Shown here in pieces: positions 38,222 to 47,908 of a stretch of DNA of 64,000 bases. Numbering within the stretch: position 1 is the first letter of the stretch; every line of letters begins with the position of its first letter. Both the position numbers and the translations under genes were made by a program. The notes under the pieces are model-generated. The model saw only the letters and a list, made by a program, of their open reading frames with translations. It was not told the DNA's origin and made no database searches. Location: the NCBI GenBank assembly GCA_021399345.1, contig JAAFKI010000059.1, forward strand, positions 1-64,000, given 5' to 3'. This stretch comes from Candidatus Heimdallarchaeota archaeon. GTDB taxonomy: Archaea; Asgardarchaeota; Heimdallarchaeia; Heimdallarchaeales; Heimdallarchaeaceae.

Positions 38222-38497
38222 CTAAGCTGCTAAGAAGTAATTTCCATTAGATTTCTGTTTCTTATCTAGTTGGGAATCCTTTTTATTGACTCTAGGTCGA
38301 AGAGTTCGAGGGTCTTGCCTGAAAGTTATACCCATCTTTCTCAAAAAATTATTCATACCATTCTGTAATGTACCAATTCTTTTGCTTGACCCCTTTTCTC
38401 CTGAAATCCCATCAAAAACCATTAGTCTATCAGAAGTGAAATTAAGCATCATAACGTCATGTTCTACTACTATTGGAAGTATCAAAAGAAAACTCAA
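38222..38497 (-). pseudogene. Truncated ABCE1/Rli1 copy (C-terminal fragment)
   Basis: An open frame of 91 codons whose last 82 residues match the C-terminus of the intact ABCE1 at 39531-41393 at about three residues in four. The homologous part begins at VVEHD, the H-switch of nucleotide-binding domain 2, and runs to the end. Everything upstream (FeS domain, first ATPase domain, both Walker motifs) is missing. The first nine residues have no ABCE1 match, so the break is near 38470. The reading frame is still open and most DNA differences are synonymous, so the copy was long under selection before truncation. It may have been a second functional ABCE1. Confidence 0.75.
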
Positions 38498-39530: not shown

Positions 39531-41393
39531 CTATGCCACAGTAAAGTATTTCCCTTCTGCTTTTTGTTTTTTGTCTAGCTGAGAACCCTTTTTGTTGACC
39601 CTAGGACGGAGATTATGAGGATCTTGTCTAAAAGTAATATCCATCCTTCTTAGAAAGTTATTCATTCCAGCTTGTACTCTTGCGATTCTCTTAGCTTTTC
39701 CTTCAATACCAGAAATTCCATCAAAAACCATTAAACGATCAGAAAAGAAATTCAACATCATAATATCATGTTCAACAACCAAACATCCCATCCCATAATG
39801 TGAAACTACTCTTTTAATTACTTTAGCTACATTTACTCTATCCTCAGAAGAAATGAAGGCCGAAGGTTCATCTATAAGATACAAATGAGCTTTTCTTCCT
39901 AGACATGCTGCAATTGAAACTTTTTGAAGTTCTCCACCTGAAAGATCACATAAACTGGAATCTAGAAGTTTAGAGAATTTTAAAGGCTCAATAATTTCTG
40001 ATTTGTGCCAACCGCTTGTTAACATTACTGGATTAATTTCACTTAAATAATCTACTACTGTTTGTTCTGATTCAGTATAGAGATATTGGGGTTTATGGCT
40101 TACTTTCAATTTTTCATTGATTCCACCATCTTGATTCTTCTCTTGAAGATCAATTGATTCTTTGTCTCTAGTTGCCATCTGAACTAACAATTCAGTAGGT
40201 TCAGATATTGTTGTAGGTTCAAGAATACCCGCTAGCATTTTTACAAAAGTTGTTTTTCCAATCCCATTGGGTCCAATGATTCCCACTACTTCTCCTTTGT
40301 AGAGTTCTCCACCTTTAACTGAAAGCTCAAAAGTATCAAATTTTTTGGTCATGTCACCATATCTTATTGCTAATCTCTGAGATGTGACCTTATCTTCGTG
40401 ACTGGCTTTTTTGAAGATAATTGGTTCAGATCTGAAGCGCATATTTTCTGAAGGAATATATCCATCTAGAAAAATATTGATACCCTCTCTCACAGAATAA
40501 GGATGACTTACAATACCGTAAACTCCAGCATCTCCATAGTACATATGTACCTGATCACTCAGATAGTCTAGCATAGCTAAATCGTGTTCAACTACAATAA
40601 GAGTGTGATTTGGTGATTTCATTTCATTGATATATTGGGCAATCTTGACTCTTTCGTGAACATCTAAATATGAGGTCGGTTCATCAAAGAGATACACATC
40701 TGCTTCTCTAACTACAGTGGCTGCAATTGCTAATTTTTGTAGTTCCCCCCCACTCAATTGTGAAATACTTCTGTCCCAAACCTTGGTTAGAGAGAAAATC
40801 TCTTTGACTTCATCTTTTAACCCACGTTCGTCAACTTTTGAAATTAAATCAGAAACATTTCCCTTAGTAACTCTAGGTAATTTGTCTACATTTTGCGGTT
40901 TTAGGATAATTGTTAACTCTTCATTTGCTATTTTTTCAAAATAGGATTGAGCTTCTGTTCCTCTGTAATTTTCTATAATTTCATCCCAGTTTGGTGGTTG
41001 ATCAAATTTTCCTAAATTTGGTTGTAATTTTCCTTGTAAAATATTGAGAGTTGTACTTTTACCAGAACCATTTTGTCCAACTAAACCAATAACCTTGCTT
41101 AGTTTTGGCATTGGTAATCTGTGAAGTTTGAATCCATTTATTCCATATCTATGTGTAACCTCTTTATCTAATTCTTCAGGAAGATTAACAACAGTAATAC
41201 AATGGAAAGGACATTTCTTAACACAAATTGCAACCCCTGAGCATAATGATTCATGAATAACAGCTTTATTGCTAGGAGGTTCAAAAGTAATAGTTTCTCT
41301 TCCCGCTCGAACAGAAGGACAAACTTTGTAACATAAATGCCCACATTTATCGGGTCTGCATTTCTCTTGATTAATCACAGCTACTCGAGTCAT
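39531..41393 (-). CDS. abce1: ABCE1/Rli1, ribosome recycling ATPase
   Basis: 620 residues, essential ribosome-splitting factor of archaea and eukaryotes. The N-terminus binds two [4Fe-4S] clusters (CRPDKCGHLCYKVCP and CSGVAICVKKCPF). NBD1 has the P-loop GQNGSGKST, signature LSGGELQK and FDEPTS, and EHD. NBD2 has GPNGIGKTT, LSGGELQKVS, DEPSAFI and VVEHD. The length is typical. A truncated copy of its last 82 residues is 1 kb downstream on the same strand, with the secreted protein gene between. Confidence 0.97.
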   Translation of the reverse strand: MTRVAVINQEKCRPDKCGHLCYKVCPSVRAGRETITFEPPSNKAVIHESLCSGVAICVKKCPFHCITVVNLPEELDKEVTHRYGINGFKLHRLPMPKLSKVIGLVGQNGSGKSTTLNILQGKLQPNLGKFDQPPNWDEIIENYRGTEAQSYFEKIANEELTIILKPQNVDKLPRVTKGNVSDLISKVDERGLKDEVKEIFSLTKVWDRSISQLSGGELQKLAIAATVVREADVYLFDEPTSYLDVHERVKIAQYINEMKSPNHTLIVVEHDLAMLDYLSDQVHMYYGDAGVYGIVSHPYSVREGINIFLDGYIPSENMRFRSEPIIFKKASHEDKVTSQRLAIRYGDMTKKFDTFELSVKGGELYKGEVVGIIGPNGIGKTTFVKMLAGILEPTTISEPTELLVQMATRDKESIDLQEKNQDGGINEKLKVSHKPQYLYTESEQTVVDYLSEINPVMLTSGWHKSEIIEPLKFSKLLDSSLCDLSGGELQKVSIAACLGRKAHLYLIDEPSAFISSEDRVNVAKVIKRVVSHYGMGCLVVEHDIMMLNFFSDRLMVFDGISGIEGKAKRIARVQAGMNNFLRRMDITFRQDPHNLRPRVNKKGSQLDKKQKAEGKYFTVA

Positions 41394-41915: not shown

Positions 41916-42572
41916 ATGCCTATTCCAGATAGTGTCCTAGCAAAAGAATATAGTCTTGTAATGGAGAGAGCTTATGCTTTCGAGCCAAAAGATGGTGATC
42001 TAACAACTTGGAAAGGTTTTGTTCCAGTAATCACAAATGAAGGAGAAATATTCGTAGATGTTGAAATAAAATTACCAGAAAATTATCCCGAATCTCCGCC
42101 AGTAGTTCAAATTCTTAGTCCAATCACTCATCCAAATATGACCACAGAAGGCATTCTCGAGATGAGAATGTTAGCACGTTGGAGAGACAGTTATCGCTTA
42201 TTCCAAGTGATAGTGGAACTACTAAGACTCTTCTCAAAAGTTCCTGCAAGATGTATTGAAGAAAAACCTCAAACTGTAGATTCTCAAGAACAACTTAATC
42301 CGATAATTACTCAGAAAGAGCAACTAGTTGTAATTCTCGAAGATAAGAAAAGAATCTTGAATGAAATTAAAAACAAGAAATCTCAACAGCTTACTAACAG
42401 AGCTTTGGAACAAGAAAAACAAAAACACCTTGATGACGAGATTTTGAATGTTGAAAGTGAACTTTTCGCGATTGAACAACAATTTGAGGATTACGATATT
42501 TCAAGTTTAGAATTTGCTAAAAGGTTCTATAATTTGAAGAAAAGACTATATCTCTTAGAGACTAAAGTGTAA
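41916..42572 (+). CDS. UEV (E2-fold, no catalytic Cys) protein with Vps23/Vps37-like C-terminus: ESCRT-I candidate
   Basis: 218 residues. Residues 5-115 follow the E2/UEV fold: WKGFVPVIT and GEIFVDVEIKLPENYPESPPVVQILSPITHPNM (the Y-P-x-x-P-P-x-V and H-P-N motifs), then GILEMRMLARWRDSYRLFQVIVELLRLF. Where an E2 has its active-site cysteine, two residues into the HPN-G-x segment, there is Leu, so conjugation is not expected. Residues 125-180 are a coiled coil, and the C-terminal LEFAKRFYNLKKRLYLLETK resembles the Vps37/steadiness-box helical end. I infer an Asgard ESCRT-I (Vps23-like) subunit. Other ESCRT genes are not in the window. An AAGGTGT ribosome-site-like stretch precedes the ATG. Confidence 0.75.
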   Translation: MPIPDSVLAKEYSLVMERAYAFEPKDGDLTTWKGFVPVITNEGEIFVDVEIKLPENYPESPPVVQILSPITHPNMTTEGILEMRMLARWRDSYRLFQVIVELLRLFSKVPARCIEEKPQTVDSQEQLNPIITQKEQLVVILEDKKRILNEIKNKKSQQLTNRALEQEKQKHLDDEILNVESELFAIEQQFEDYDISSLEFAKRFYNLKKRLYLLETKV

Positions 42573-44010: not shown

Positions 44011-44883
44011 TTACAAATCTTCCAATTTCTTCAAAGCTTTTAGAAGTTCAGCTTTGTCTCCACTTACAGCCTCTCCAAATAGTTCTGCTGATTTTTTCTC
44101 TTCTGGAGCTACAGCTTCTATTTCATCTGCTTTTGGTACTGGAGGTTGTACAGCTTGTGGCTGCAGTGTAGATGAATCATCTTGTGATGGAGGCGGCATT
44201 GGTATGCTACCTGATACTTCTTTAGAAATTGGACTCACATCTCTTTCAGCTGGTTCAGTGACTTGAGTCGCAGGTTTAGGAAATGCTGCGGGTGTTGGAA
44301 TATCAGGTTTTGCAGGAATGGTTGCAGGTTCTGGCATTTCGATTGGTTGAGGTATTTCAGGTTCTGGAGTACTACGAATTGGAGATGGAGGTGCAGGTGT
44401 GGGTATTGATGGAGCTTCAACTGTTGGAGGTACAGGTTGTTTTTCAACATCAGGTTCTGGTGCTGAGGTTATAACCTCTGGTGTAGGTGGTGGAATTGTA
44501 GGTGCTGTAGGCATTTCAATGACAGATTCAGGTTTTGTTTCTTTTTCAGCAATGTCTTTTAGAGCTTGAACGTCCGCTGGCTCAACCACTGTCTCTTGTT
44601 GCACACTTCTAGCTGCTTCAATCAAAAGAATTCTTTCATTGAGACCATCTAATCTTTTTTCTAGTCGAGAAACTTGATCTGGAGAACTAGGTGCTCCTGC
44701 TGGAACTCCTGATTGCTCAAGTACAGATATTTTATTCTCTAAATTCTCTATTTTTTCTTTTAGAGATACAACAACATTATCGTAATCTTTGAATCTTTCT
44801 TGGACGGCTGAAACTATACTTTCAACCATATTTTTTACCATATTGACAGAATTCACCAATGATTTTACTTCATCTTTTGCCAT
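44011..44883 (-). CDS. Coiled-coil protein with long proline-rich linker
   Basis: 290 residues from ATG 44883; the frame extends upstream to 44949 but that part contains no conserved feature. N-terminal residues 1-75 are a coiled coil (LVNSVNMVKNMVESIV to LENKISVLEQ). Residues about 105-240 are extraordinarily rich in Pro, Glu, Ala, Thr and Ile (PPTPEVITSAPEPD and similar), with many PxxP motifs. A short helix LFGEAVSGDKAELLKALKKLEDL ends the protein. PxxP tracts of this sort recruit SH3/WW-like domains or UEV PTAP-type peptides in eukaryotes; an APTIPPP-like segment is present, but no exact PTAP is seen. Function unknown. Confidence 0.7.
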   Translation of the reverse strand: MAKDEVKSLVNSVNMVKNMVESIVSAVQERFKDYDNVVVSLKEKIENLENKISVLEQSGVPAGAPSSPDQVSRLEKRLDGLNERILLIEAARSVQQETVVEPADVQALKDIAEKETKPESVIEMPTAPTIPPPTPEVITSAPEPDVEKQPVPPTVEAPSIPTPAPPSPIRSTPEPEIPQPIEMPEPATIPAKPDIPTPAAFPKPATQVTEPAERDVSPISKEVSGSIPMPPPSQDDSSTLQPQAVQPPVPKADEIEAVAPEEKKSAELFGEAVSGDKAELLKALKKLEDL

Positions 44884-47059: not shown

Positions 47060-47908
47060 CTAAACTTGACATTTTTCGCAATAGAAGGTACTTCTTTTAT
47101 CCTGTACGATTCTTATGATTTCATTGCCACAGCTTTCACAATCAATCCCTGCTTTTGCATACACCTTATGCCATTTCTGAGCAGAACCTTCTTCTCCAGT
47201 AAATGTTCTAAATGATTGTATTGAACTTCCCATGGAATCAACAGCTTTGTGAAGAATAATTGAAATCGAGAATCCCAACCTTTCTATTTCTTCAGGTTTG
47301 AGTTTTTTTACTAATCTTAAAGGGTTTATTTTTGCTAATGCTAAAGCTTCTGATTTGTAGATATTCCCTATTCCTGCGATTAAAGTTTGATCAAGAAGAA
47401 TTCTTCCAATTTCTTTGTTTGCATTTTTTTTCAGTTTAAGCTTCTCAGCAAATGCTTCTTGGGGGAAAGGAACTTTCAGTCCATTAGAGCCTAAATTTCT
47501 AATAGGTAAATAGTTTATTACATCTTGATAGGTATCATAAATTCTGAACTGTCCAAAATTTCTTGCGTCTTCAAAAATAGCTATCTTATTTTCGTTTTTA
47601 AATAGAATTTTTATCTTGGGGTGAATAATCTGAGTTGGAACATCTGCCCCTTCAGAGATAATCCAATGTCCAGACATGCCTAAATGATTTAGAATGACTT
47701 TTGAGAAATCAAAATTCCAAATAAGAAATTTCCCTTTTCTTTCAATTTTTGTTATTGTTTTTCCAATAAATACGTCGAATATCTTTTGCTTTCCCTCATA
47801 TTTTTTGTATTTTTGTGAAAGTTTAGTTAATTCTATTTTCACTATTTTCTTGCCTTCAAACCTTCTTAAAGAAAGTCTTGTGCATTCAACTTCTGGACCT
47901 TCTGGCAT
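47060..47908 (-). CDS. Formamidopyrimidine-DNA glycosylase / endonuclease VIII family (Fpg/Nei)
   Basis: 282 residues. The N-terminal catalytic proline and glutamate are in MPEGPEVE, with ILNHLGMSGHW (helix and void-filling loop), the H2TH DNA-binding region IGRILLDQTLIAGIGNIYKSE, and the zinc finger C-x2-C...C-x2-C (CESCGNEI and FYCEKC). Repairs oxidised purines or pyrimidines. This family is common in bacteria and plants but rare in archaea, so transfer is plausible. It is 3 bases from the THEP1 gene on the same strand. Confidence 0.92.
   Translation of the reverse strand: MPEGPEVECTRLSLRRFEGKKIVKIELTKLSQKYKKYEGKQKIFDVFIGKTITKIERKGKFLIWNFDFSKVILNHLGMSGHWIISEGADVPTQIIHPKIKILFKNENKIAIFEDARNFGQFRIYDTYQDVINYLPIRNLGSNGLKVPFPQEAFAEKLKLKKNANKEIGRILLDQTLIAGIGNIYKSEALALAKINPLRLVKKLKPEEIERLGFSISIILHKAVDSMGSSIQSFRTFTGEEGSAQKWHKVYAKAGIDCESCGNEIIRIVQDKRSTFYCEKCQV

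Follow-up and report, generated by a model that had tools for sequence, protein, structure and literature searches.

A predicted second UEV-stalk-steadiness-box protein in Heimdallarchaeia, a candidate subunit of ESCRT-I

Background

Is an archaeal protein that carries a UEV domain, a coiled coil and a steadiness-box-like end in a single chain the Vps23 of its host, or another member of the same complex? The question is raised by one gene, called here gene A (product: A), in a stretch of 64,000 nucleotides (the window) that belongs to a Candidatus Heimdallarchaeota genome of 3.27 Mb. The initial annotation had read A as a minimal Vps23 and, more broadly, as an ESCRT-I candidate of the Vps23/37 type.

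For Odinarchaeota, Hatano et al. 2022 (PMC9192718) reported that Vps23 and Vps28 assemble 2:1, as a Vps23 homodimer, and that ubiquitin binds the UEV. The fusion of Vps23 with Vps28 is reported in the same work to dimerise by itself. Vps37 was described as absent from Asgard archaea, ESCRT-I being either the Vps23 homodimer with Vps28 or the self-dimerising fusion. The same paper lists two E2-like proteins without the cysteine in AB_125, HeimAB125_14070 and HeimAB125_11700. Only the UEV part of the latter was modelled there, residues 91 to the end being dropped for low confidence, and the protein may have been included in the two-hybrid set. An ESCRT-I-like C-terminal half of 11700 or of A is described neither in that paper nor in Makarova et al. 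2024 (PMC10936438), supplements aside.

Contig 66 of AB_125 carries a protein 93% identical to A. In all probability this is HeimAB125_11700, for which no more than a candidate UEV had been noted before; the identification was made by elimination, 11700 being the sole Cys-less protein of UBC fold listed in PMC9192718 besides 14070, and by contig order.

Results

Gene A and its distribution

The open reading frame was present exactly as annotated, with an ATG start and a plausible ribosome-binding sequence, aaaggtg, directly 5' of it. The following features were assigned in the window, all on the + strand:

41916..42572, +: gene A, second UEV-stalk-steadiness-box protein, 218 amino acids (open reading frame and orthologues)
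41916..42245, +: UEV domain, residues 1-110 (Pfam UQ_con/UEV, AlphaFold2 model, Foldseek)
42129..42137, +: HPN motif, residues 72-74 (sequence)
42159..42161, +: codon of Glu82, at the position of the E2 catalytic Cys (alignment with E2K, family column)
42282..42374, +: stalk (coiled-coil) helix, residues 123-153 (AlphaFold2 models)
42396..42566, +: steadiness-box-like helical hairpin, residues 161-217 (AlphaFold2 models, Foldseek to ESCRT-I Vps23, profile match to Asgard Vps23 hairpins)

Orthologues of A are kept in 42 of the 45 genomes of five family-level groups of Heimdallarchaeia (f1 to f4 and f6; one orthologue is cut by a contig edge), which shows that the frame is a real gene. The three genomes of these groups that have no A are 64 to 80% complete. 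A is absent from the 12 f5 and two f7 genomes, which belong to the same class. Among the 228 genomes of the phylum no further member was recognised; the relatives there are Vps23-type proteins or E2s. The gap in score is clear: full-length A proteins have E <= 6e-62 and other Vps23s E >= 9e-49. Nearly all genomes with A also encode a Vps23. Named relatives range from 99% identity (MAG CSMAG_2184) down to 49% (Ca. Heimdallarchaeum endolithica PR6), and no family for A was found in NCBIfam.

A UEV domain without catalytic cysteine

Both Pfam UQ_con (3.2e-13) and UEV (1.9e-6) matched A above their curated cut-offs. The AlphaFold2 model, made with 35 relatives (pLDDT 86.2), has a helix at residues 5-18, a beta sheet and a helix at 95-108, that is, the layout of a UEV. 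Foldseek against the PDB returned 383 chains at E <= 1e-3, of which the 50 best were UBC-fold chains or fusions with one. The E2 fold proposed for the N-terminal half is thus borne out, the predicted structure having E2/UEV topology, and the two motifs on which the proposal had drawn, YPESPP and HPN, are both found in the sequence.

At the catalytic position, for which leucine had been given, the assignment was wrong by one residue: Glu82 occupies it (HPN+10, and also by alignment with E2K). E2s have their catalytic Cys after HPN, where A has this glutamate. No cysteine occurs at position 82 or within residues 78-86 in any of the 35 rows of the family alignment. A UBC fold without the catalytic Cys makes A a UEV, as had been claimed, and since it lacks the Cys it cannot conjugate ubiquitin.

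A UEV may also serve outside ESCRT. When the UEV of A was compared with PDB sequences, UBE2V2/Mms2 chains ranked among the best matches, the UBC fold is catalytically dead in both, and the host genome encodes a functional-looking E2 of 155 amino acids. A could then be a cofactor like Mms2/UBE2V, the UEV cofactors of Ubc13, pairing with the host E2 in ubiquitin chain building, with its helical tail as a mere dimerisation arm. We consider this very unlikely: the UEV matches of A are general to the fold, its C-terminal half is homologous to the stalk and steadiness box of Vps23, and A sides with Vps23s against E2s in a tree of A, Vps23 and E2 rows (see below). Mms2/UBE2V proteins are not known to have a stalk or a steadiness box.

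A C-terminal half resembling the ESCRT-I headpiece

In the model, the UEV is followed by a stalk helix (residues 123-153) and a hairpin of two helices (161-191 and 197-217), so that the coiled coil and the steadiness-box-like C-terminus first read from the sequence are both recovered. When the C-terminal half was modelled alone the same shape was obtained, and most hairpin residues had a pLDDT of about 95-97. Compared with HeimAB125_11700 as published, the C-terminal part of A is, with 27-35 relatives, confidently predicted as stalk plus hairpin.

The C-terminal half was compared by Foldseek with 350,542 PDB chains. Ranks 1 and 2 were Vps23 of yeast ESCRT-I, superposed with an rmsd of 0.6 and 0.8 Å over 47 residues at a non-significant E of about 1; further ESCRT-I chains were in the top 25, and no chain identifiable as Vps37 was in the top 50. 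With E-values about 1, rank and rmsd are suggestive only. The stronger evidence, which lies in sequence profiles, came from canonical Asgard Vps23s: their C-terminal halves aligned with that of A over 91-92 columns with a probability of 97.1-97.5% and E of 6e-11 to 6e-12. The hairpins alone gave 96-97%, in a gap-free alignment. When PDB sequences were searched with the C-terminal profile (A3) by hmmsearch, coiled-coil noise alone was returned (best E 0.011, a prefoldin). By homology and by model, the stalk helix and hairpin of A are of the ESCRT-I headpiece kind; the resemblance to ESCRT-I helices, whose absence would have counted against the first reading, was found at 97% in the profile comparison.

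The Vps23 of the host is another gene

A full ubiquitin-ESCRT locus (L033, 61000-73936 of contig 123) lies on a separate contig of the host genome, in keeping with the statement that Asgard archaea have ESCRT components. It holds genes for ubiquitin, a ThiF-type E1, a UEV-Vps23_core-VPS28 fusion, a 104-amino-acid open reading frame, Vps22 (EAP30), Vps25, Vps4 and two Snf7 proteins; Pfam confirms every product except that of the 104-amino-acid frame. The gene most relevant here is:

L033:7892-9340: UEV-Vps23-Vps28 fusion, adjoining ubiquitin and E1, matching Vps23_core

Its published counterpart is HeimAB125_14070 (PMC9192718). The fused form was seen in family group f1; the other groups encode Vps23 and Vps28 separately, in genes that adjoin each other. 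A and the fusion are homologous along the whole of A (27% identity), but the fusion adds Vps28, adjoins ubiquitin and E1, and matches Vps23_core. The Vps23 of the host is this fusion in the ESCRT locus, not A. The idea of a minimal Vps23 is not supported as it stood, on this ground and also because A has no Vps23 hairpin signature and lies outside all ESCRT clusters examined.

The 104-amino-acid frame (L033:7513-7827), between Vps22 and the fusion, is kept in f1, f2 and f6. The idea that it is a free steadiness box found no support: it had no Pfam match, and an alignment with the C-terminal part of Vps28, although rightly placed, reached a probability of 1.6%.

Hairpin signatures of Vps23 and Vps37

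A resembles Asgard and eukaryotic Vps23/TSG101 in having a UEV without Cys, a stalk and a steadiness-box hairpin in a single chain. It differs in the details by which Vps23 is recognised. Vps23_core had no match in A proteins even at E <= 10 in 57 genomes, whereas it matched 17 of 33 Heimdall Vps23s at E <= 0.1. The hairpin residues A-x-x-D, also present in TSG101 and yeast Vps23, were found in 14 of 20 Heimdall Vps23s, in all 16 other Asgard Vps23s and in none of 21 A proteins. In the hairpins of canonical Asgard Vps23s, A178, L203 and Y207 hardly vary and D181 is present in most, while A proteins have A178 in 0 of 35, Y207 in 0 of 35 and L203 in 1 of 35. Nor does A have the long proline-rich linker of Vps23/TSG101. 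Replacement of the Vps23-invariant residues throughout the family is what one would expect if A fills a different place in the headpiece.

Could that place be held by descent? A would then be the true orthologue of the eukaryotic Vps37 proteins, and VPS37A would have kept the ancestral arrangement of UEV and Mod(r). VPS37A has the same domain order, with helices after a UEV-like domain. Mod(r) (PF07200, the Vps37 domain) matched 10 of 35 A members at E <= 0.1 (best 1.8e-5), all below the Pfam cut-off, and in the six divergent members whose coordinates were checked these sub-threshold alignments lay at the hairpin in one constant register. Over the 228 genomes, ten Mod(r) matches at E <= 1e-3 included A proteins and no Heimdall Vps23. 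In a whole-genome comparison at E <= 10, just two Heimdall Vps23s were among the matches listed. Mod(r) also matches unrelated coiled coils over whole genomes, so it is no proof alone, and the member of the family in the window has no Mod(r) match.

The direct comparisons did not favour orthology. The hairpin profile of A had no direct match to VPS37B, TSG101 or yeast Vps23 (hhalign to VPS37B, 0.5%), and the single-sequence A hairpin scored at shuffle level against all three, whereas the single-sequence hairpin of Heimdall Vps23 clearly matched TSG101 and yeast Vps23. The eukaryotic query sequences agree letter for letter with the PDB chains over the stretches used. In a tree with eukaryotic rows, VPS37A joined TSG101 and not A, although on a branch of 3.8 changes per column that carries a long-branch warning. 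With A also missing from f5 and f7 of the same class, true orthology to Vps37 seems highly improbable. We conclude from these comparisons that A is, on its predicted sequence features, a Vps23 paralogue departed from the Vps23 pattern and Vps37-like at most by hint. As for the first label, Vps23/37-like, its ESCRT-I ancestry is supported by profile and model, the minimal Vps23 is not supported as stated, and a Vps37-like role is possible.

Phylogeny

A tree of 61 rows was made with A, the Heimdall Vps23s, other Asgard Vps23s and E2s as the out-group. Support was 95/85 for the A clade, 98/96 for the Heimdall Vps23s and, weaker, 81/74 for the other Asgard Vps23s. A grouped with the canonical Vps23s, apart from the E2s. 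In the best tree A fell outside all Vps23s; joining it to the Heimdall Vps23s, to the other Asgard Vps23s or to the Heimdall Vps23s of its order was not rejected (AU p 0.44, 0.41 and 0.18). Eukaryotic rows had branches too long for them to be placed. As judged by sequence phylogeny, A is a separate, well-supported paralogue clade of Vps23.

Gene surroundings

In f1, gene A is divergent to ABCE1, and a conserved set lies 3' of it: a small membrane protein, an MraY/GPT-type transferase, a coiled-coil proline-rich protein, an M28-like peptidase, Fpg and SBDS. Most of this synteny is gone in the other families, where A stands beside ribosomal, polymerase or other housekeeping genes. Gene A was seen inside none of the ESCRT clusters examined, and it is neither fused with nor adjoining vps28 or other ESCRT genes. 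One linked gene provides a lead:

44014..44883, -: coiled-coil proline-rich protein with conserved C-terminal GDKAELLKALKKLEDL, near A in other families too (lead only)

This protein, with its conserved C-terminal helix, is encoded no more than about 2 kb from A in the majority of f1 genomes that have both. The same distance holds in one f2 genome (G023) and two f3 genomes (G024 and G032), and in genome G026 the two genes are 11 kb apart; the f2 and G032 matches are weak (E 6e-4 and 7e-6), and the G024 protein is part of the query profile. It is a possible functional partner of A. The idea that it carries a UEV-binding motif P[TS]AP found no support, the motif being present in some orthologues only and with no significant excess over shuffles.

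Two other features of the window were recorded. A 91-amino-acid frame (38222-38497, -), directly downstream of the full ABCE1 gene (39531-41393), repeats the C-terminal end of ABCE1 and is apparently a truncated duplicate of it. The Fpg/MutM DNA glycosylase (47060-47908, -), which scores above the NCBIfam cut-off in an archaeon, lies between the M28-like peptidase and an NTPase gene.

Discussion

That A has an ESCRT-I function of some kind appears likely. To the narrower proposal, that this old and diverged Vps23 paralogue acts as a second UEV subunit of ESCRT-I in the Vps37 position, we give about an even chance. The UEV of A would probably recognise membrane cargo that carries ubiquitin or a tag like it. 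Its stalk and hairpin would probably dock on the corresponding stalk and hairpins in the Vps23-Vps28 fusion. Of the two positions for a Vps23-like chain in archaeal ESCRT-I, A would in this way fill one, that of the second Vps23 in Odinarchaeota and of Vps37 in eukaryotes. The Vps23 homodimer would become a heteromer, in which two different ubiquitin readers feed ESCRT-II, ESCRT-III and Vps4.

The position of the gene outside all ESCRT clusters examined speaks against a place at the Vps37 position, and since the fusion is reported to self-dimerise (PMC9192718), a third ESCRT-I subunit is not required. A might instead be a second adaptor of the Vps23 type, forming its own homodimer and an alternative, cargo-selected ESCRT-I with Vps28. 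It shares the UEV-stalk-hairpin architecture of Vps23 and is homologous to it along its whole length, Foldseek prefers Vps23 hairpins for it, and its own place in the genome would suit an independent role. Against this stand the replacement of the Vps23-invariant hairpin positions in nearly every A and the match to Vps23_core in no A, and we regard such an adaptor as conceivable but doubtful.

A larger claim would be that A is the archaeal Vps37, and that one ancestor with UEV, stalk and steadiness box had already given rise in Asgard archaea, before there were eukaryotes, to both Vps23 and a partner of the Vps37 type. We think this unlikely. If it were true, the heteromeric core of ESCRT-I would predate the eukaryotic cell, and the UEV-bearing VPS37A would be the ancestral form. 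As a second UEV subunit, conserved and diverged in Heimdallarchaeia, A is a concrete candidate for the missing third ESCRT-I subunit of Asgard archaea, and the origin of heteromeric ESCRT-I becomes directly testable with two recombinant proteins.
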